Shown here piece after piece: positions 33,595 to 42,294 of a stretch of 64,000 nt of DNA. Origin of the DNA: Natronobeatus ordinarius. Lineage in GTDB: Archaea; Halobacteriota; Halobacteria; Halobacteriales; Natrialbaceae. The DNA lies in the NCBI RefSeq assembly GCF_024362485.1, contig NZ_CP101456.1:3534001-3598000 (forward strand), written 5' to 3'. The translations under genes were made by a program, and so were the position numbers. Each line of letters begins with the position of its first letter. The first letter of the stretch is position 1. A model generated the notes under the pieces. The model ran no database searches, had not been told where the DNA came from, and saw only the letters and a list, made by a program, of their open reading frames with translations.

Positions 33595-33949
33595 TATCAC
33601 CCTGGTTTTAACGGGGGTTATTTTGAAACCGGCACATGCTATGTTGGATAGACGCACAGCATACGCATGTAGTGATATTATTCTTCGAACCTATGATGGT
33701 ATCTAGTTAGTCCAGGTGTTGGAGAGCTAGTGGTTTGTAGAAATTCACATCCTGAGGTTGTGACTAGAGGACTCGAGATTTGGTATATCACTATGCAGTT
33801 TATACTTGGGCTATGATTATAGATCTTTGAGCTACAGGGTCTGAAACGTCTGAATTCAGCGCTCCACAGGATTGGATAGAGTACTTTGCATTAGTCCAGT
33901 AATCACAAGTACCTTTATTGTCTCGAACGCCGTCTACTCATCTACGTTG
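33595..33949. other. Intergenic, AT-rich, no gene seen
   Basis: The stretch is much AT-richer than its surroundings. I looked for a tRNA or att core next to the recombinase gene and saw none. ACCTTTATTG at 33911-33920 is the likely TATA element of the recombinase gene. Confidence 0.4.
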
Positions 33950-35104
33950 ATGCAACCCGGAGATTCCGGCGCTACCCCAGGGAAAACGCCGCTGAAAGAC
34001 GCCCTCGAGGAGTGTCTCGAGACCAAAGGTCGACTCTCACCGAACTATCGGGAGAACTTCGAGCGCGTGGTTGGTTCCTGGATCGACTTCTGCCACCGGC
34101 GCAACGTCGAGGCCCTCGAGGATGTCACGGAACGCACCATGGCCGCCTTCGCTGGTCACCTCGCTCGTCGTGTCGAGGCCGGTCAATCTGATGGCGTCGA
34201 CGGCGGGATCGCGGCTTCAACCGCATGGACGTACTACGATTACGTCTCGGCGTTCCTTTCCTGGGCAGTCAAGTGGGACTACCTCACCGAGAATCCTGCG
34301 GAAAAAGCACGGGCTCGCGAGCCGATGCCTGCTCGTCCCTCGAGCGGCGAGTACAACCGCCAGTTCTGGCAGTCCGAACAGCGACAGACGGTCGTCGACT
34401 ACGTGCGCCGGCGCGTCGACAGCGCCTATCGGCACCCGATCGCCCCGAAGCCCGTCTTACACAAGCGCCTCCGAGACCGTGCCCTCGTCGCGACGCTCGC
34501 GTACACGGGCGTCCGTGGTGGAGAGATCCTGAACGACCCGACCGACGACCGGCGGGCCGGTCTGCGGTGGAAAGACGTCGACCTCGAGGACGGCAGGCTC
34601 AGGATCCTCGGAAAGAACCAGCAAGTCGAAGATGCCCAACTCCCTACGCAAGCAGCACGACCGTTACGACGGTGGAAGGACGCCCTCGAGCCGACAGCCT
34701 CGGACTGGCCTGTCTTCCCATCGATGCACGTCCCTACACTCTCACGGAAGATCGCAGCTGAACTCGGTCCGAAAGAACGTAGCAAACGAGTCTCGACGAG
34801 TCACCACTGGGCTGTTGTGCTTGATGAGGAGATCGAACCGCCGTCGATCACTACTGAAGGCGTACGATCGATCCTCAAACGCCTCACCGACGCCGCCGAC
34901 GTTCCTGGACTTGGCGAAGATGAGTATCTCACGCTTCACGGAGCCCGCCGTGGAGTTGGCGAAAAGCTCTATCGTGAGCGTGGACACGCAGCCGCCCAAC
35001 GAACCCTTCGACACGCCGACCCGTCAACCACCTCGGAGATGTATGCCCACATCGAAGCGAGTGAATTGGCTGACGACGTGAGTGAGGTGTTCAATGGTGA
35101 ATGA
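33950..35104 (+). CDS. Tyrosine recombinase / phage-type integrase
   Basis: Protein of 384 residues from ATG at 33950 (MQPGDSGATPG). The N-terminal SAM-like domain includes SPNYRENFERVVGSWIDFCH. In the catalytic domain, YTGVRGGEIL has the first Arg, RILGKNQQVEDAQL the Lys-bearing beta-hairpin, LHGARRGVGEKLYRERG the H-x-x-R, and LRHADPSTTSEMYAHI the second His and the nucleophile Tyr. All catalytic residues are present. The C-terminus (ASELADDVSEVFNG) is of Xer type. It may resolve dimers of this replicon or excise an element; no flanking att repeats were seen. Confidence 0.92.
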   Translation: MQPGDSGATPGKTPLKDALEECLETKGRLSPNYRENFERVVGSWIDFCHRRNVEALEDVTERTMAAFAGHLARRVEAGQSDGVDGGIAASTAWTYYDYVSAFLSWAVKWDYLTENPAEKARAREPMPARPSSGEYNRQFWQSEQRQTVVDYVRRRVDSAYRHPIAPKPVLHKRLRDRALVATLAYTGVRGGEILNDPTDDRRAGLRWKDVDLEDGRLRILGKNQQVEDAQLPTQAARPLRRWKDALEPTASDWPVFPSMHVPTLSRKIAAELGPKERSKRVSTSHHWAVVLDEEIEPPSITTEGVRSILKRLTDAADVPGLGEDEYLTLHGARRGVGEKLYRERGHAAAQRTLRHADPSTTSEMYAHIEASELADDVSEVFNGE

Positions 35105-35162: not shown

Positions 35163-35573
35163 TCAACTCTCAGTGACGTAGTGGTGTTCATCCGATAGCG
35201 CCTGGGCGTCTTCGGGGAGTAACGCGGCAACGAGGCAGTCGATGAACTCCTCGCGGTACTCAACCAGGTCGGCGATGCGTTCGGAATCGACCGCTTCGAG
35301 CAAATCGAGCAGCATGAACGGGACGACGTCGTGGATGTCGTGGACGAGGTAGCCCGCCAGCGTGAAGACGAGGACGGTCACTTCCCATTCGCTCTCGGAG
35401 AGGTGATCGATCGTGTCCTCGCAGGTCGCCTCTTCCTCGCTGGTCCGGACGACGTGGAGGTTGAACGCTGAGCGGGTCACAGCCCGCCACTCCTCTCGGA
35501 CAGTCTGCTCGCGGCGCTCAATCCAGATCCGTCCGATGTTGGCGTACTCGAGCACCGAGAGGATCGATTCCAC
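35163..35573 (-). CDS. Hypothetical acidic helical protein
   Basis: Protein of 136 residues from GTG at 35573 (a stop lies 16 codons upstream in frame, with no better start). It is largely helical: EYANIGRIWIERREQTVREE, CEDTIDHLSESEWEVTVLVF, and EYREEFIDCLVAALLPEDAQ. No motif recognised. Codon use is normal. It lies between the recombinase and PolB2 genes and may belong with either. Confidence 0.55.
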   Translation of the reverse strand: MESILSVLEYANIGRIWIERREQTVREEWRAVTRSAFNLHVVRTSEEEATCEDTIDHLSESEWEVTVLVFTLAGYLVHDIHDVVPFMLLDLLEAVDSERIADLVEYREEFIDCLVAALLPEDAQALSDEHHYVTES

Positions 35574-35661: not shown

Positions 35662-37770
35662 TCAATGCCAGGCGGTTATGGATGCGTCGACACGCTCATC
35701 AAGGTAATGTTCGATATCTGACTGTCGCCACTCGAGTGGTGAACACACGCTTTCAGCAGCACGAATCAGCAGCTCGGCATAGAAATCGACGTCGTACTCT
35801 GTGACCGCTTCGTGCTCGAGCGCGACGCGATTCCTCGAGTCACGCTCGTCGTCGGTCACCACGTACGAGATGTGTTCTCCGGGGTGGAACTCGAGCCCTT
35901 CATCCTGCGCTCGTTCGAGCGCTGCGACGGTTCGGGTTCGTTGGTGATACTCTCCTAAGCGCCTGGACGCTCGACGAGTGATTACGAGCGATGTCGGCTC
36001 GATCGAACCCGTGCGGAGCGTCTCGAGGTGACGCTGGAGTCGGTCGCAGACTGCCTCGGGTGTTCGGTGGACGTCGAGCGTCTCGATCAGGTCACGCTGG
36101 GCGTCCTTGATGAACGAAGGGGTGTGGCGTTGTCGACACTCGATACCCCGGTACTTGTACTGCTCCTCGTCGGTGAGTTTCCCGAAATACTTGTTGAGTG
36201 CTCCCTCGTCGCTATCTCGGAGTGGAACGAAGGCAATCCAGTCGTAGGCCGCCTCGTACTCCAGACGAATTCCGATGGCGTCGGTGATCTCAGTCGTCAG
36301 TTCCTCGAGTGGCCTCTGGCGGTCGCCTTCGACGGGTGTCACCCACAGGCTGTCGACGATGCCGTGCACGAGGTGCCAGCCGTTTTTCTCCAGGATTTCC
36401 TTCGCGTCGAGCAGGAGTTCGCGAGCGAAGGCGTTGATCGCCTCGTGGCACTCGATCCGGCCGAACTTCGCGTTCGAGAAGCCCTGGTAGCCGAAACAGG
36501 AGACGAGAATCCACTTGATTGCCTCCGCCCGGCGACGCAACGTCCGCTCGCGCTCGGGATCGTCGACGCCGGCGCGGAGTTCGGCTTTCATCGCGTCGCG
36601 GTCGTCGATCAACGGGCCGAGGACGTCCGGCAGGTAGCCCGGTTCGTCACAGATGCTGTAGCCGAGTTCGGGGACGTCTTCGCGATCGGCGTGGCACGAA
36701 CACCGGATCGTCTCCGGACTGACGTTTCGGGTTCGGATGATGTTTGGATACAGACTCGAGAAGTCGAGTTCGTGAACGTTCTCGTGGAGCCCAACCTCCG
36801 GTGCGAACGTGTGGCCACCACGGTCGGCGTCGTGCAGCGTCGACATCGGCTTGAAGAACTCGTGTCGCCAGTAGCGCCAGGGGACGAGGACGTTTCGGTC
36901 GCGGGCTTCGCGAATCTGAATCGCCGTGAGCACGTTCCCGATCGACGCCCACGCGAGTTCCTGCAGCGGCTTTCTCGACCGCTGCACGAGATCGAGACAG
37001 CCATCGAGTCCCGACTGATGGTGGAAGAACGTGTTCGACCGATCGATGAGCACCCGACCGGGAACGTCGTACCGAGCGGGAGAGTGCCCGACCTGGCCAT
37101 AGCTTTCGTACGTCGATCGTCCCGCGAGCTGCTGCCACCCCGGACGCCGACCCAGCTGAAAGTCGAGGTCGTGTTCTGCGGCTGTCCGATAGAGGACGGG
37201 AACGATCTCGGTCGTCGAGCAGATCAGCACGTCGGGAGCAACTGTCGAAAGGGCGTCGGTGATCGCCTCGAGCACGGAGACCGCATCGCCAGCGACCTGC
37301 TCGGACCCAACCGTGAGTTCGGTGATCGGCGGTGTCGCGAGTTCCACCGGTTCGACCTCGAGTTCGAGCGTCGTCAACTCGCGGGCGGGCGTCGGATCAC
37401 GGTCGCGTTCGAGACAGTATCGAAACTCCCGCGAGAGGTCGACGTTGTAACAGCGATGCGTTCCCGGCCGATCGAGCGCTGTCACTCGCTCGGCGACGTT
37501 CCGGACGACGCCAATCGACTCGAGATCGACTCGAAGTACGTCTTCGGCATCGTGGCGAAACCCCCGTCGCCACCGTTCCTGGTCGACGGTGACGACTGCA
37601 GGATGCGATTGCAGCAGTTCGTTCACCGCATCGAATTTCGAGTCTCCCTCGTGTTCCGTCGTTACGTAGACCGACGGTGTGTAGTCCTCGATCCGACGGA
37701 CTGATACCCCGTCATCGGTGGCCGTCCACTCGTAGACGCCGTCGTCGAGAAAGTCGATTTTGAAGGCCAT
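35662..37770 (-). CDS. polB2: PolB2-type family B DNA polymerase with degenerate motif C
   Basis: Protein of 702 residues from ATG at 37770 (MAFKIDFLDDG). Motif A DFSSLYP (336-342) and motif B KWILVSCFGYQGFSNAKFG (about 419-437) are intact. Motif C reads HGIVDS (469-474) instead of the usual YGDTDS, so the first catalytic Asp is Ile. The exonuclease region has no clear DIE motif (LELEVEP instead). Such PolB2 proteins are classed as probably inactive or atypical. It is the last gene of an operon with a small protein and a RecA-like protein, by analogy with bacterial ImuA-ImuB-DnaE2 a translesion or accessory complex. Confidence 0.9.
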   Translation of the reverse strand: MAFKIDFLDDGVYEWTATDDGVSVRRIEDYTPSVYVTTEHEGDSKFDAVNELLQSHPAVVTVDQERWRRGFRHDAEDVLRVDLESIGVVRNVAERVTALDRPGTHRCYNVDLSREFRYCLERDRDPTPARELTTLELEVEPVELATPPITELTVGSEQVAGDAVSVLEAITDALSTVAPDVLICSTTEIVPVLYRTAAEHDLDFQLGRRPGWQQLAGRSTYESYGQVGHSPARYDVPGRVLIDRSNTFFHHQSGLDGCLDLVQRSRKPLQELAWASIGNVLTAIQIREARDRNVLVPWRYWRHEFFKPMSTLHDADRGGHTFAPEVGLHENVHELDFSSLYPNIIRTRNVSPETIRCSCHADREDVPELGYSICDEPGYLPDVLGPLIDDRDAMKAELRAGVDDPERERTLRRRAEAIKWILVSCFGYQGFSNAKFGRIECHEAINAFARELLLDAKEILEKNGWHLVHGIVDSLWVTPVEGDRQRPLEELTTEITDAIGIRLEYEAAYDWIAFVPLRDSDEGALNKYFGKLTDEEQYKYRGIECRQRHTPSFIKDAQRDLIETLDVHRTPEAVCDRLQRHLETLRTGSIEPTSLVITRRASRRLGEYHQRTRTVAALERAQDEGLEFHPGEHISYVVTDDERDSRNRVALEHEAVTEYDVDFYAELLIRAAESVCSPLEWRQSDIEHYLDERVDASITAWH

Positions 37771-37771
37771 G

Positions 37772-38032
37772 TTACTCGAGCTCGTCGATCGCATCGACCT
37801 GGGCTTCGAGTTCTTCGATCCGTTGTGCCTGCTCGAGGAGAATCGAGATCAGCAACGGATAGAACGGTTCGGGGTGGTTGAGAGTTCCTGCTGCGTCGGC
37901 GTGTGCACGTGCGTGCTCGAAGAGCCGGTCGAATCGCTCCTGATCGTCCCGGCGTAGCCCCCGACGGTACGGCTGCCACCGTGTCTCGAGTCCGCTTAGC
38001 AGGTCGCGATAGGTCGGGTTAGTACGACCCAT
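37772..38032 (-). CDS. Small conserved helical protein of the PolB2 operon
   Basis: Protein of 86 residues, ending just before the polB2 start. MGRTNPTYRDLLSGLETRWQ and RALRRDDQ-type residues lead to RFDRLFEHARAHADAAGTLN, then a C-terminal coiled coil (LLEQAQRIEELEAQVDAIDE). It resembles haloarchaeal small proteins of DUF8156 type (from memory). Its start overlaps the end of the RecA-like gene by 14 bp. A structural or bridging role between the RecA-like protein and the polymerase is a guess from operon order. Confidence 0.75.
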   Translation of the reverse strand: MGRTNPTYRDLLSGLETRWQPYRRGLRRDDQERFDRLFEHARAHADAAGTLNHPEPFYPLLISILLEQAQRIEELEAQVDAIDELE

Positions 38033-38711
38033 CGGCGGTCACCTCCGGTGGGGATGGTATTGTCGTCGACGGACGTTCGTAGAGTGGCTGTCGGGCGGCG
38101 AGCACGCGTTTCCAGAACGTCAGCGTCGTCTGCACGTGGCCGCTGCTGGCCGGGTAGACGAGCGTCTCGAAATCGTCGGCGACGAACCGCGGTCCGAAGC
38201 GGGTGTGCTCACACTCGATGACCTCCCGGGCTGCGTTTACGACTGGGTCGGCGAACGCGTCGTCACGCGTCTTCGTGATCAATACCGGAAGGTCGTGTTC
38301 TCGAGCGATCGCGGCGATCGTCGCGATCGTCCTCGTGAGCAGGTTCGTTCGTTCCGTCCGTCGGAGGCTATCCGACCGGTACTGGCCGTCCAGCGCCGGG
38401 AGGACGAGCAACGATGTTTCCTCATCGATGAGTGGCGAAACGCTATCGACGAGTGCGTGATGCTGAAACGCGGTGAATCCTCTGGCAACGTGGATGCGAT
38501 CGAGCAATCGGAAGTGGGGTGCAAGCCGGTAGAGCGGACGCGTCGTCGCGTGGCCGTGTGAATCAATCCAGTAGGCGCTCCCACCGGTTCGGAGCACGTG
38601 ATCGGCAACCAGCGCATGGAGCGGGCCTCTGGAACCACCTGCCGTCTCGAGAAGCTGGACCCCCGACTCGAGCGTCGGTAGTTCCGGTATCGTCTGATCG
38701 TGTATGCCCAT
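38019..38711 (-). CDS. RecA/RadA-superfamily-like protein without Walker A lysine
   Basis: Protein of 230 residues. The N-terminus places GVQLLETAGGSRGPLHALVA where a RadA Walker A (GxxxxGKT) would be; the Lys is missing. AYWIDSHGHATTRPLYRLAP and RIHVARGFTAFQHHALVDSV match the strand-helix order of RadA/RadB (the VARAFT-like segment is diagnostic). LLVLPALDGQY is the Walker B position. Predicted to be a non-hydrolysing RecA-fold scaffold. First gene of the operon with the small helical protein and PolB2, an arrangement recalling bacterial ImuA. A palindrome 46-62 bp before its start is shared with the third cdc6 gene. Confidence 0.72.
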   Translation of the reverse strand: MGIHDQTIPELPTLESGVQLLETAGGSRGPLHALVADHVLRTGGSAYWIDSHGHATTRPLYRLAPHFRLLDRIHVARGFTAFQHHALVDSVSPLIDEETSLLVLPALDGQYRSDSLRRTERTNLLTRTIATIAAIAREHDLPVLITKTRDDAFADPVVNAAREVIECEHTRFGPRFVADDFETLVYPASSGHVQTTLTFWKRVLAARQPLYERPSTTIPSPPEVTADGSY

Positions 38712-38755
38712 GCCAACAAGATAGAATTTCGGTTAGAATAAGGCGTGGCGTGTGG

Positions 38756-38773
38756 CTTCCGGAATTTCCGAAG
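38756..38773 (-). promoter_or_regulatory. Palindromic operator of the RecA-like/PolB2 operon
   Basis: On the minus strand the site reads CTTCGGAAATTCCGGAAG. It lies 15 bp before a TTATT TATA-like element and about 46 bp before the start codon at 38711. CGGAAATTCCGGAA is identical to the site before the third cdc6 gene, with the same 15-bp gap to TATA. Confidence 0.7.
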
Positions 38774-38941
38774 TCCTAATTCCGTGGGTAGTGTCTCGAT
38801 TACTGCACTCGATGTTGGTGAGAATGAGAGGGGAGCATAGTTGCAGGAAATCACGAACCCATATCCTGTCGACAAGTGGGTAGGTAACGAGGTCCGACTG
38901 CGAAGGGCACCTTCTTGAGACGACCGACCCATCTCCTGCTC

Positions 38942-39979
38942 ATGCACCAGGTCGGAATCGTCGGCTGTGGCGTCATCGGGTCGCGCCTTGCGAAAACGTT
39001 TGACGAACACGAACGGACCGAAATCCGGGCAGTCTGTGACCGCGTCGCCGAGAAAGCAGAATCGATGGCGGCAACGTACGACTGTGAGGCGGTCACCGCG
39101 GTAGAGGACCTCGTCGATCTCGACACGATCGATATCGTCTACGTGGGCGTCCCGCCGAAGCACCACGCGGCCGTCGTCCAGGCCGCACTCAGCGCAGAAA
39201 CGCACGTCATCTGTGAGAAACCCATTGCGGAGAACGCAGCGGTCGGCCGTGAGCTAACCGGCCTTGCACGCGAGAGCGACCGGACGACGGCTATCAACTT
39301 CCCGTTCCGCTACACGCCAGGGTTCGTCGAGATGCGCGACCGGATCGCAGCCGGCGAGATCGGCACGCCGAAACGTGTCGCCCTCCGATTTCGCTTCCCG
39401 CAGTGGCCGCGCGAGTGGCAGGACGTCGACTGGCTCGCCGGCCGCGAGCAAGGCGGCCCGCTCCGGGAGGTCGGGAGCCACTTCGTGTTCGGGACGCAGG
39501 AACTGTTCGGTGGTCTCGTCGACGTCACTGCGGACGTACGGCATACGGCCCCAGAGAAGTACGAGGAGTCCATCGTTGGCACATTCCTCGCCGGTGGCGA
39601 TGTTGCGGGCGCCGATGTGAGCGAGGCAGACCGAGCGGATGCCGAGACCGTCACCGACGTCGGCGGTGCTGTCGCCCTCGATGAGCGCGTCCACGGGACT
39701 ATCGACCTCCTCTGTGACTGTGCCGGCAGCGAGGAAAATAGCCTCACCGTCGAGGGAACCGAGGGGTCGCTGTCGCTACAGGCGTGGCGCTGCCTCGTCG
39801 CCAACCCCGGCGAGGCGGACGAGCGCGTGATTACCGAGGAACCGGGCGAGACGACACTCACACTGATCGACGAGTTCGTGACCGAGCTCGAGGGCGGCGA
39901 CGGCGACCTCGTCTCCTTCGCAGAGGCGACGCGCGTCCAGGAGGTCGTCGACACCGTCCTCGGCGTCGACGCTGAGTGA
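38942..39979 (+). CDS. Gfo/Idh/MocA-family oxidoreductase
   Basis: Protein of 345 residues from ATG at 38942 (MHQVGIVGCGVIGSRLAKTF). The dinucleotide motif GIVGCGVIGS is at 4-13, and HVICEKPIAENAAVGREL carries the family's EKP motif with its catalytic Lys. EVGSHFVFGTQELFG gives the downstream GSH(x)3-type His. NAD(P)-dependent oxidation of a sugar or polyol is the usual role. It is monocistronic and lies between two minus-strand units, PolB2 and cdc6, without any obvious functional link to them. Confidence 0.9.
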   Translation: MHQVGIVGCGVIGSRLAKTFDEHERTEIRAVCDRVAEKAESMAATYDCEAVTAVEDLVDLDTIDIVYVGVPPKHHAAVVQAALSAETHVICEKPIAENAAVGRELTGLARESDRTTAINFPFRYTPGFVEMRDRIAAGEIGTPKRVALRFRFPQWPREWQDVDWLAGREQGGPLREVGSHFVFGTQELFGGLVDVTADVRHTAPEKYEESIVGTFLAGGDVAGADVSEADRADAETVTDVGGAVALDERVHGTIDLLCDCAGSEENSLTVEGTEGSLSLQAWRCLVANPGEADERVITEEPGETTLTLIDEFVTELEGGDGDLVSFAEATRVQEVVDTVLGVDAE

Positions 39980-40194
39980 AGCGGTCGAGACTTCTTGCAC
40001 AGGTTCTCGAGCTACTGTGCTCGGGAGGACGACCTCCTTGCGGGTGAAGCTCTGAGCGTGAACGAGGTGATGGAGCTGCCGTCGAACAGCCATAACGCCG
40101 CCTTTGCCGCGTAGCGAACGGTCTCCTCAGTATCAGGAACCTCTCCCCCGTGAATCGTTCGATGATCCACTCGAGTGACCACGCTGTTTCCGGT

Positions 40195-41199
40195 TCACTC
40201 TAGCGTTCGGTACACGCGATCTCGGCTGCTCCCTTCAGCACTGAGCAGATTGTATCGAGCCATCTTCGAGAGGTACGTTCGGACCGTCCGATCGGTTTTC
40301 GGATTCTCGGCTCGCTCTCGGTACGTGGCGTAGATGTCACCGGGTGCGAGTTCGTCGTGCTCGTCGAGAATCTCGTAGAGGAGGCGTTGGTGGGGGGTGA
40401 GCGTATCGAGGTTTTTCCGTCGGATCTCGGCTTCAGCATCGGGAATTGACTGCTCGGCCACCGACGCAGTGATCGTCTCGAGGTGGTTTTGCTGTGCCCG
40501 TCGGGCTGCACTCCGGAGGATGCTCAACGCAACGCGAGCGTCGCCAGCTGCCACATCGGCGATCGTCTGCAGCACCGATCTGTCGACGGCACCATCCCGG
40601 AGCCCGATCCGGACGCGTCTGTGCATGATCTCGACGAGCGCGTCGGTCGAGTACCGATCGAACTGGACGCGTTCACTACCGCGCAGCCGACTCACGAGCC
40701 GGTCGTCGAGATCGGTGAACAGCTCTGCTTCACGGTTTGCGATCAGTATCAGCGAAAACCGAGACAACGCGTGTAAATCGTAGAGGAGCCGTTTGTCCTC
40801 GAGTTGGTCGACCTCGTCCAGGATCACCAGACACGGAGGCCCGTCGTACCGCCGGAGCCGCTCGAGCAGTTCGTCGTGCGGCGTCGACTGGCGATGGATA
40901 TCGAGCGTCTTTCCGAGGCCCTCGAGGATTCGATAGACGGTTCGAAACCGCGAGTAGTTCTGCCAGCAGTTCACGTACTGCGTCTCGACTGAGAGCGTTT
41001 CCTGTTGGAGCCGGTCGGCCATATACCGCGAAATGCAGGTTTTTCCCGTCCCCGACGGTCCAGTCAGGAGTGCCACGTCAGTTGGCTCGCCTCGAGTCAG
41101 TGGCTCGAGGACGTGAGCGAGGTGGTTCACTTCGGCATCACGGTGGACGAGTTCCTGGGGGACGAACTCCGGCCGAAGCACCCTCGCATCCCGAATCAT
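40195..41199 (-). CDS. cdc6: Orc1/Cdc6-like AAA+ protein, third copy
   Basis: Protein of 334 residues from ATG at 41199 (MIRDARVLRPEFVPQEL). The frame is open to 41295, but the TATA element (ACTTATACTC) lies within that extension about 28 bp before 41199. Walker A GPSGTGKT at 47-54 and Walker B LVILDEVDQLED are present, and RDGAVDRSVLQTIADVAAGD and ARVALSILRSAARRA match the lid. The C-terminal winged helix is short (GDIYATYRERAENPKTDRTV). It is divergent from the two origin-linked copies and has no ORB array nearby. It shares a promoter palindrome with the PolB2 operon, so it may serve in repair rather than routine initiation. Confidence 0.88.
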   Translation of the reverse strand: MIRDARVLRPEFVPQELVHRDAEVNHLAHVLEPLTRGEPTDVALLTGPSGTGKTCISRYMADRLQQETLSVETQYVNCWQNYSRFRTVYRILEGLGKTLDIHRQSTPHDELLERLRRYDGPPCLVILDEVDQLEDKRLLYDLHALSRFSLILIANREAELFTDLDDRLVSRLRGSERVQFDRYSTDALVEIMHRRVRIGLRDGAVDRSVLQTIADVAAGDARVALSILRSAARRAQQNHLETITASVAEQSIPDAEAEIRRKNLDTLTPHQRLLYEILDEHDELAPGDIYATYRERAENPKTDRTVRTYLSKMARYNLLSAEGSSRDRVYRTLE

Positions 41200-41243
41200 C
41201 GTCCGAGAGATTCTCACGGGTGAGTATAAGTGGAAGGGGGTCG

Positions 41244-41263
41244 ATTCCGGAATTTCCGGAAAT
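41244..41263 (-). promoter_or_regulatory. Palindromic operator of the third cdc6 gene
   Basis: On the minus strand ATTTCCGGAAATTCCGGAAT, 45-64 bp before the start codon and 15 bp before TTATA. It matches the operator of the RecA-like/PolB2 operon over 14 consecutive bases at equal spacing. Confidence 0.7.
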
Positions 41264-41424: not shown

Positions 41425-42031
41425 TCAGAAATAATTACTCATCGTAGATATAGTGGGCTGGTCAAGAGCTGTATCAATCGCCGTTGTAAGATCGCCGAGT
41501 GACTCAAAGAAGCGGTTGCCGAGAGCAGCTTGACGTTGTCTGCAGCACTCCTCGACAGAATTTAGCGCTGGCGAGTACGCCGATAACGTGTTGGACGGAT
41601 TTCTTGGGTTGATCGATACAGACTACTGTGGCGTCCATCTCCCGCCGCTTTTTTTGAACTCTTCGCGGAACGTCTCTTGCTCGTCAGCATTGGATTCGGC
41701 GGCTGCACGGCGCGGTGTTTGATAGCTCAACCCCGCTTCCTTGAGCAGCCGCCGGCAACTCGGGATTGAGTACTCGACATCGTACGTTTCGGCAAGATAC
41801 TGCTGGACGAGCGCCGGCGTCCACGCCGGCGCGTCGAGCCCAATTTCTTCAGGAGATCCGTGAACAGTTGCTTCGAATTGTTCTTGCTTTTTTCCGAGAA
41901 CTTTCGTTTTCTCCCAGATCGATGGACATCAGTGACGGCCTGCTCAAGCGACTCATCCGTACTTTCTTTCCGTCCACGTTGTCGAGAGCATCTTGCAACT
42001 CTTCGACTGAGATCTCGTCGAGGTGATCCAC
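41425..42031 (-). pseudogene. Decayed IS630-family transposase
   Basis: Fragments of one transposase in several frames. The N-terminus from 42031 reads MDHLDEISVEELQDALDNVD. After a gap, APAWTPALVQQYLAETYDVE, YSIPSCRRLLKEAGLSYQTP and REMDATVVCIDQ follow. Then the sequence jumps to the C-terminus, RQAALGNRFFESLGDLTTAI and a stop at 41425. The central DDE residues are mostly deleted. It is an old inactive copy; an intact relative would be about 340 residues. Confidence 0.8.
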
Positions 42032-42294
42032 TGCCTGTCACAAGACTTATCGAGTAAATAATTCTAATGGGCGCTAAATTTGGTCGTCACTGCACCGTCA
42101 CTATAGGTCGGGACTTACTGGCGCACCGTGTGTTACACACATATGGTTGTAATGGATTCGGTTCCGTTGGGGCTCCTTCGTCCTTACAACTTCGTGGATG
42201 TGATCTCCGAGTACACAACAGCTAGACCATAGTGCCAACGAGTTATCACACGAGATTAATAACTAATCTATCAGTATTTGAAGCAACACACTAT

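Follow-up and report, generated by a model that had tools for sequence, protein, structure and literature searches.

Two minus-strand units lying 2.5 kb apart in a 64,000-nucleotide stretch of the Natronobeatus ordinarius genome (contig NZ_CP101456.1, positions 3,534,001 to 3,598,000; hereafter, the window) carry the same promoter element at the same distance from a TATA-like box and from the start codon. The first unit is the three-gene operon of the PolB2 mutasome (iRadA, PPB2, and PolB2), and the second is a single Orc1/Cdc6 gene. The element is built on a head-to-tail GGAA repeat, recurs across haloarchaeal genera, and is found almost exclusively before mutasome genes and one subfamily of Orc/Cdc6 genes. 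Judged by sequence and placement, it is practically certain to be a cis-regulatory site truly common to both units. We infer that the Orc/Cdc6 protein regulates its own promoter and the iRadA-PPB2-PolB2 operon.

CGGAAATTCCGGAA was located on the minus strand at 38770-38757 and 41258-41245, in agreement with an initial annotation of the window, which had reported 14 identical bases common to both units. Its distances (15 bp to a TATA-like element and about 45 bp to the start) were also reproduced, the spacing being identical at both sites, with TTAT[A/T] after 15 nt and the ATG (38711 and 41199, respectively) after 45 nt. The element before the mutasome operon (TTCGGAAATTCCGGAA, 38757..38772, minus strand) is a head-to-tail repeat of the TYCGGAA half-site, in which GGAA occupies 38769-38766 and 38760-38757 (9-bp spacing). 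The TATA-like TTATT (38737..38741, minus strand) lies 15 nt 3' of it and about 29 nt before the ATG, a leaderless-type arrangement. The element before the Orc/Cdc6 gene (TTTCCGGAAATTCCGGAA, 41245..41262, minus strand) has GGAA at 41257-41254 and 41248-41245, also with 9-bp spacing, and is followed 15 nt 3' by TTATA (41225..41229, minus strand), in the same register as in relatives.

The genome (4,208,668 bases) was searched by sequence patterns, and the scoring matrix described below was applied to the collected loci and to the window. The 12-mer CGGAAATTCCGG occurs without mismatch at only two places in the genome, one before each unit; the site is thus not frequent at random positions, which the annotation had named as an outcome that would count against it. 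One-mismatch matches elsewhere lie nearly all within open frames of at least 120 codons and are chance-like. The pattern GGAANNNNYGGAAN{13,15}TTWW matches the genome twice, at the two window sites, and its reversed control gave 0 matches. The window sites score 40.0 and 41.6 bits with the matrix (both belong to its training set, and the scores are therefore not independent), and the next-best window position scores -2.4. Further candidates in the genome were set aside. A second pair of similar sites, CGGAACTTCCGG, at 222938 and 225168 (2.2 kb apart), lies within open frames and is missing the second GGAA. Of two relaxed half-site pairs, one (L273) sits in a coding frame and the other (L274) is intergenic with no fitting TATA register or same-strand gene; both were unconvincing.

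The conserved core, as compared among relatives, is head-to-tail GGAA-N5-GGAA (TYCGGAA..TYCGGAA), 9 bp apart and 15 nt upstream of the TATA box, in forms such as TATCGGAAGAATCGGAAATCG, TTCTGGAATTTCCGGAAACG, TCTGGAACATCTGGAAACC, and TTCGGAAGGATCGGAAGGG. The window copies are palindromic, as initially described (ATTTCCGGAAAT), and look so because TTCCGGAA is its own reverse complement. The description does not extend to the conserved element: the complete inverted TTCC arm is retained in 20/83 elements, and a palindromic operator as a conserved property was rejected on the sequences of relatives. On these alignments, the direct repeat, not the palindrome, is the conserved property. AATTTC is present on the plus strand of both window sites and is not kept in the haloarchaeal consensus. 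The variant in plasmid-borne relatives has a single clear half-site (TTTCCGGAAACGACCCGGTCACGTTTTTA before orc and TGAAACGCGGAAGCGACACGCCGCGGCTTAT before iRadA). A second GGAA pair (8-12 bp spacing) is found no more than 120 bp further upstream in 34/86 iRadA promoters (L060, L063, L066, L067, L070, L112, and L114 among them) and in 0/39 orc promoters. Since the TATA-to-start distance has a median of 29-30 nt, the transcripts are probably leaderless, which would place the element about 45-60 bp before the transcription start.

Homologs of iRadA were found in 131/195 genomes of the order. Sixty stretches from iRadA genomes and 80 named loci were collected, yielding 125 non-redundant iRadA loci (1.41 Mb). 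A footprint pattern covering the element and the TATA box (N6-GGAA-N4-Y-GGAA-N15-TTW-N3) was applied to them, with the choice of matches blind to gene positions. Of its 61 matches, 31 are situated before iRadA and the remaining 30 before the linked Orc/Cdc6 gene; shuffled sequence gave a mean of 0.4 matches (maximum 2) and reversed sequence 0. The matrix built from the footprint sites marks 139 places at 11 bits or more, all but three of them before mutasome or Orc genes (reversed control, 0); the matrix was trained on the same loci, so that the scores are not independent, while the location of the sites is. The matrix-positive places fall in 94 distinct loci, with sites before the iRadA frame in 81 and before the Orc gene in 39. 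Named host genera include Halorussus, Haladaptatus, Halorientalis, Halogranum, Halocatena, Halomarina, Natronomonas, Halorubrum, and Natrinema, among others, and the lack of conservation before orthologous genes that the annotation had named as grounds for giving up its proposal was accordingly not encountered. The Orc gene and polB2 thus share a promoter element upstream of the transcription factor B recognition element (BRE) and TATA box. Up to five iRadA copies were counted per Haladaptatus genome (G190, G194, and others); they are spread over different replicons, and several are accompanied by an Orc gene and element of their own. An apparent third target in three Haladaptatus genomes (GGAAACTCCGGAA...) was discarded, as it lies within a long coding frame, i.e., in homologous coding sequence.

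The element follows the genes when they are separated. Where polB2 forms a separate plasmid unit, it has its own element (L156, L164, L170, L174, L175, L186, L187, and L188). Among 20 hand-picked off-locus matches in other genomes, the convincing ones are all before the same Orc subfamily (MIxDARVLxxxFVPxE; L234, L237, L238, L240, and L242-L247), one of them (L234) about 160 kb from iRadA. Within the collected loci, 39/64 polB2-type Orc genes have the full element and 55/64 have the element or one half-site with a TATA box; the corresponding figures for the other Orc genes are 0/21 for the full element and 1/21 for a half-site. The element at iRadA is more common where a polB2-type Orc gene is present in the locus (odds ratio 4.0, p 9e-4), and paired sites of one genome are more alike than shuffled pairs (0.60 vs 0.49; 0 of 5000). 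The gene for SRAP (SOS response-associated peptidase) was considered as a further target and ruled out, the element being missing before it on Halobacterium pHS2 and Haloarcula pNG600. SRAP is situated near the polB2-linked Cdc6 gene on Halobacterium (L226, 2173-2862) and Haloarcula (L227, 2048-2737) plasmids; in the window genome it is far from the module (G000:C1:1013743-1014426).

The initial gene calls (PolB2, a RecA-fold protein without its Walker lysine, a small helical protein, and Orc1/Cdc6) proved correct. In the first unit, the leading gene, iRadA (38019..38711, minus strand), encodes a RecA/Rad51-fold, Rad51/RadB-like protein (Pfam Rad51, 9.8e-6; TIGR02237, 1.2e-7); in the alignment its P-loop is missing, and with it the Walker A lysine, in line with a catalytically inactive RadA homolog. 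The start of PPB2 (37772..38032, minus strand; arCOG07300-type, small and helical) overlaps the end of iRadA. Its N-terminus reads MGRTNPTY, in line with the MGRT described for this protein (PMC11791011); no Pfam or NCBIfam match was found in the profile searches, and homologs of PPB2 neighbor iRadA in 137 loci. The third gene encodes the polymerase (35662..37770, minus strand), which scores 1097 bits against NF004418 (cut-off 692), placing it in the PolB2 group, and also matches PF00136 (1.8e-25); its motif C is HGIVDS, the usual form being DTDS. This three-gene set is the PolB2 mutasome analyzed by Timinskas et al. (PMC11791011), predicted earlier as an operon by Makarova et al. (PMC4104785), and orc/cdc6 genes near it were reported in both studies. 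The gene set and its linkage to an arORC2-type Orc1/Cdc6 gene are therefore already known.

The second unit, the proposed regulator gene (40195..41199, minus strand), encodes 334 aa with intact Walker motifs. It scores 191.3 bits with TIGR02928 (cut-off 181.3) and 3.4e-13 with PF22703; the Cdc6_C domain model by itself is under its cut-off (14.8 vs 25.1 bits). The protein has the AAA+ Walker A and B motifs, Cdc6 lid, and C-terminal winged helix of the Orc1/Cdc6 family. The closest solved folds to its AlphaFold (AF2) model (pLDDT 90.7) are 2v1u (Aeropyrum Orc1) and 2qby (Sulfolobus Cdc6-1), both with origin DNA. Of 11 full-length orc/cdc6 genes in the genome, the window contains three, which fits the "third cdc6 gene" of the annotation; the other two are at about 15362 and 18927.

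On sequence grounds, this Orc/Cdc6 protein is likely the binder of the element. The reasons are the GGAAA core that the element has in common with predicted Orc boxes together with its tie to one Orc subfamily, the precedent of Sulfolobus Orc1-2, and the DNA-bound Orc1/Cdc6 structures as nearest folds of the model. Predicted Orc boxes by other orc genes of this genome have the core [CT]GGAAA[CT] (TACTGGAAAYAGYGGGGT, CGACGGAAACCCGGGGTGGG, and CACCGGAAACGTGGTGT), and haloarchaeal Orc proteins and neighboring boxes are family-specific (PMC3528665). Other orc/cdc6 genes of the genome (L248-L251) are flanked up- and downstream by ORB-like repeats (ORB, origin recognition box) with a GGAAA core and G-runs that differ per gene. 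The element's location upstream of BRE/TATA would probably favor activation over repression.

In the mechanism proposed here, the element, a head-to-tail pair of GGAA(A) half-sites spaced by roughly one turn of the helix and set at a constant distance upstream of BRE/TATA, is taken as a transcription-factor site. The winged-helix protein recognizing it would be the Orc1/Cdc6 paralog whose gene lies 2.5 kb away, and this protein would control both its own promoter and that of iRadA-PPB2-PolB2. Upon a replication block or DNA damage, an ATP- or signal-dependent form of the protein would activate both promoters, by analogy with Sulfolobus Orc1-2 and Dpo2, and positive feedback would lead to the production of the PolB2 mutasome for mutagenic lesion bypass. 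The regulon would be small and dedicated, the strict element being present at two promoters only in this genome. Taken as a whole, the reading that the Orc/Cdc6 paralog binds the element, autoregulates, and turns on the mutasome is considered fairly probable. The part of it that concerns activation by DNA damage or replication stress draws on analogy, and the balance tips modestly in its favor.

Several observations weigh against this reading. No matrix match was found at iRadA in 39/125 loci, and the second arORC2-like gene of this genome (L258, at 1451376) is without the element. In a profile comparison against solved structures, Cdc6-1/Orc1-1 entries rank above ORC2, and any orthology with Sulfolobus Orc1-2 is tentative. 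The likeness of same-genome sites may in part come from shared ancestry. In the published ultraviolet (UV) array studies of Halobacterium NRC-1, the induced genes named include radA1 and nrdJ; polB2 and orc were not found among them when searched by gene name. In three related loci (L062, L064, and L068), the element is present at iRadA and absent before the Orc gene, and in 31 loci with the element at iRadA there is no such Orc gene within the stretch examined, although it may sit elsewhere in the genome. The last two observations are what would be expected if the element were a true operator of both units bound by an unlinked helix-turn-helix repressor or activator, with Orc/Cdc6 a mere member of the regulon. 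That explanation is nevertheless unlikely: the element marks only this Orc subfamily and the mutasome genes and follows the Orc gene far from polB2, its core equals that of predicted Orc boxes in this genome, and self-regulation by the encoded DNA-binding protein is the simplest reading.

The core that points to an Orc protein is also compatible with the element being an origin recognition box by the orc gene and not a transcriptional site, as haloarchaeal orc/cdc6 genes often adjoin origins with ORB repeats (PMC3528665) and predicted ORBs contain GGAAA. Such a box would not account for the 15-nt distance to TATA being kept at two or more separate promoters, nor for elements before iRadA and polB2 where no orc gene is nearby. 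The repeat is head-to-tail and not inverted about an A+T-rich stretch, the halophile G-string is missing, and no inverted ORBs with a G-string around an A+T-rich region were found at the window elements; an origin function is thus considered highly improbable. A nonfunctional copy left by recent local duplication of upstream DNA might explain the 14 identical bases in units only 2.5 kb apart, but the likeness ends at the element and TATA register, and the site pair recurs in many genera with altered spacer bases. This explanation was rejected on these grounds, its probability being negligible. The annotation had also likened the site to an SOS operator. A LexA/SOS-type palindromic repressor operator would match the symmetry of the copies in this genome, and lexA is found linked to polB2 operons in bacteria (PMC11791011, PMC4104785); the symmetry, however, is not kept in relatives, where the direct repeat is constant, and the site is upstream of BRE/TATA, where archaeal activators bind. 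With LexA_DNA_bind, the genome gives a single, marginal match (22-24 bits; cut-off 23.7), and control genomes of other archaea match too. This possibility is regarded as very improbable. Of the co-regulated translesion module that had been proposed, the co-regulation is well supported by the shared conserved element, and the translesion reading is in keeping with the literature, where the mutasome has been likened to bacterial Pol V (PMC11791011); the SOS-type repressor operator is not supported.

An Orc-based control of PolB2 through the element has its closest parallel in the DNA-damage regulon of Sulfolobus Orc1-2 (Cdc6-2). There, Orc1-2 binds the ANTTTC element (DDRE) at its own promoter, and further damage-response promoters carry the motif as well; the PolB2 of that system, Dpo2, fails to be induced when functional Orc1-2 is lacking (PMC9738581). 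The Sulfolobus motif is non-palindromic and placed at -44 to -39, upstream of BRE (PMC5817253). The two cases are alike in having a non-initiator Orc1/Cdc6 paralog as regulator (proposed, in the present case), a short non-palindromic motif just upstream of BRE/TATA at the promoters of the regulator and of damage genes, and PolB2 as a target. They differ in the motif, here a 9-bp-spaced GGAA direct repeat with a further C-rich stretch, and in extent, as the strict regulon predicted here comprises two promoters, whereas the motif screen of S. acidocaldarius gave 214 genes (PMC5817253).

The window operon resembles the described PolB2-iRadA-PPB2 mutasome in gene order (iRadA-PPB2-PolB2), inactive P-loop, altered motif C, and nearby orc/cdc6 (PMC11791011, PMC4104785). 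The accessible text of these two papers, however, treats neighborhood enrichment only, with no shared cis-element or regulon, and the word "promoter" is absent from PMC11791011. The element shares the GGAAA[CT] core of predicted ORBs at other orc genes here; it differs from haloarchaeal ORBs in having a fixed TATA register and neither a G-string nor an inverted pair around an unwinding region. Bacterial LexA operons (lexA-imuA-imuB-dnaE2 and lexA-linked PolB2) similarly put a regulator gene and a cassette for a mutagenic polymerase under a single operator, but the regulator family is unrelated, the element here is asymmetric, and its position suggests activation.

A UV-B-associated haloarchaeal promoter motif, TTTCACTTTCA, is known from Halobacterium, where it precedes radA1, top6B, vng17, and vng280 (PMC2556686). 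It, too, is short and repeated and lies upstream of TATA, some 50 bp ahead of the start, at damage-associated promoters, but its sequence and genes are different and it is not before the window genes: no exact match was found in the window, and the three one-mismatch matches there are far from both promoters. The window genome has the motif at six places (L267-L272), one of which (L268, G000:C1:493139-493149) is before radA, as in Halobacterium. In the collected loci, the UV-B-motif pattern has six matches, all at iRadA or orc genes. A close variant is present upstream of TATA before iRadA in loci where the GGAA repeat is missing (L077 at 5933+, L104, L109, and L110), and exact copies precede a divergent orc gene (L074 at 3832+ and L078). 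The Halobacterium plasmid-type promoter (L226) has a degenerate GGAA element only. The UV-B motif at these genes would independently tie the module to UV-type control, the numbers being small, and the window genome may have two distinct candidate damage elements.

A shared polB2/orc element in haloarchaea was not found in the literature searched, with most subscription papers outside its reach, and the conserved cis-element common to both units seems not to have been described before. What is new is this element with its architecture, distribution, and implied two-promoter regulon; Orc-controlled PolB2 is known in Sulfolobus. Deletion of polB2 is possible in Haloferax, and polB2 regulation is not described in the accessible part of that report (PMC7776575). 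For the little-understood induction of damage responses and mutagenesis in euryarchaea, a precise, conserved two-promoter element tied to one Orc/Cdc6 paralog offers a simple test in tractable haloarchaea. If the proposed control is real, replication initiators as damage regulators would be extended from Sulfolobus to euryarchaea, and one reason would be given why many haloarchaeal orc/cdc6 paralogs persist without a tie to an origin. A broader proposal is that haloarchaea have a dedicated master switch of inducible mutagenesis derived from a replication initiator: a short Orc1/Cdc6 paralog, either relieved of origin duty or still sharing in it, would recognize a tandem element resembling an origin box, boost its own expression, and induce the PolB2 mutasome. 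The chances for and against this proposal are considered even; were it true, Orc-based PolB2 control would, together with the Sulfolobus case, represent a pan-archaeal counterpart of LexA-SOS.

Several neighboring features were recorded. Between the two units, a GFO/IDH/MocA-type oxidoreductase is encoded in the opposite direction (38942-39979, plus strand) and seems, from its sequence, unrelated to the module. Adjoining PolB2, a 136-aa frame (35163-35573, minus strand) matches only the C-terminal end (484-593) of the archaea-specific SMC-related NF045487 and is probably a truncated gene. A tyrosine recombinase lies at 33872-35104 (plus strand), and apparent transposase remnants at 41450-42070; together with the presence of three orc/cdc6 genes in the window, they suggest that a plasmid region has been integrated.

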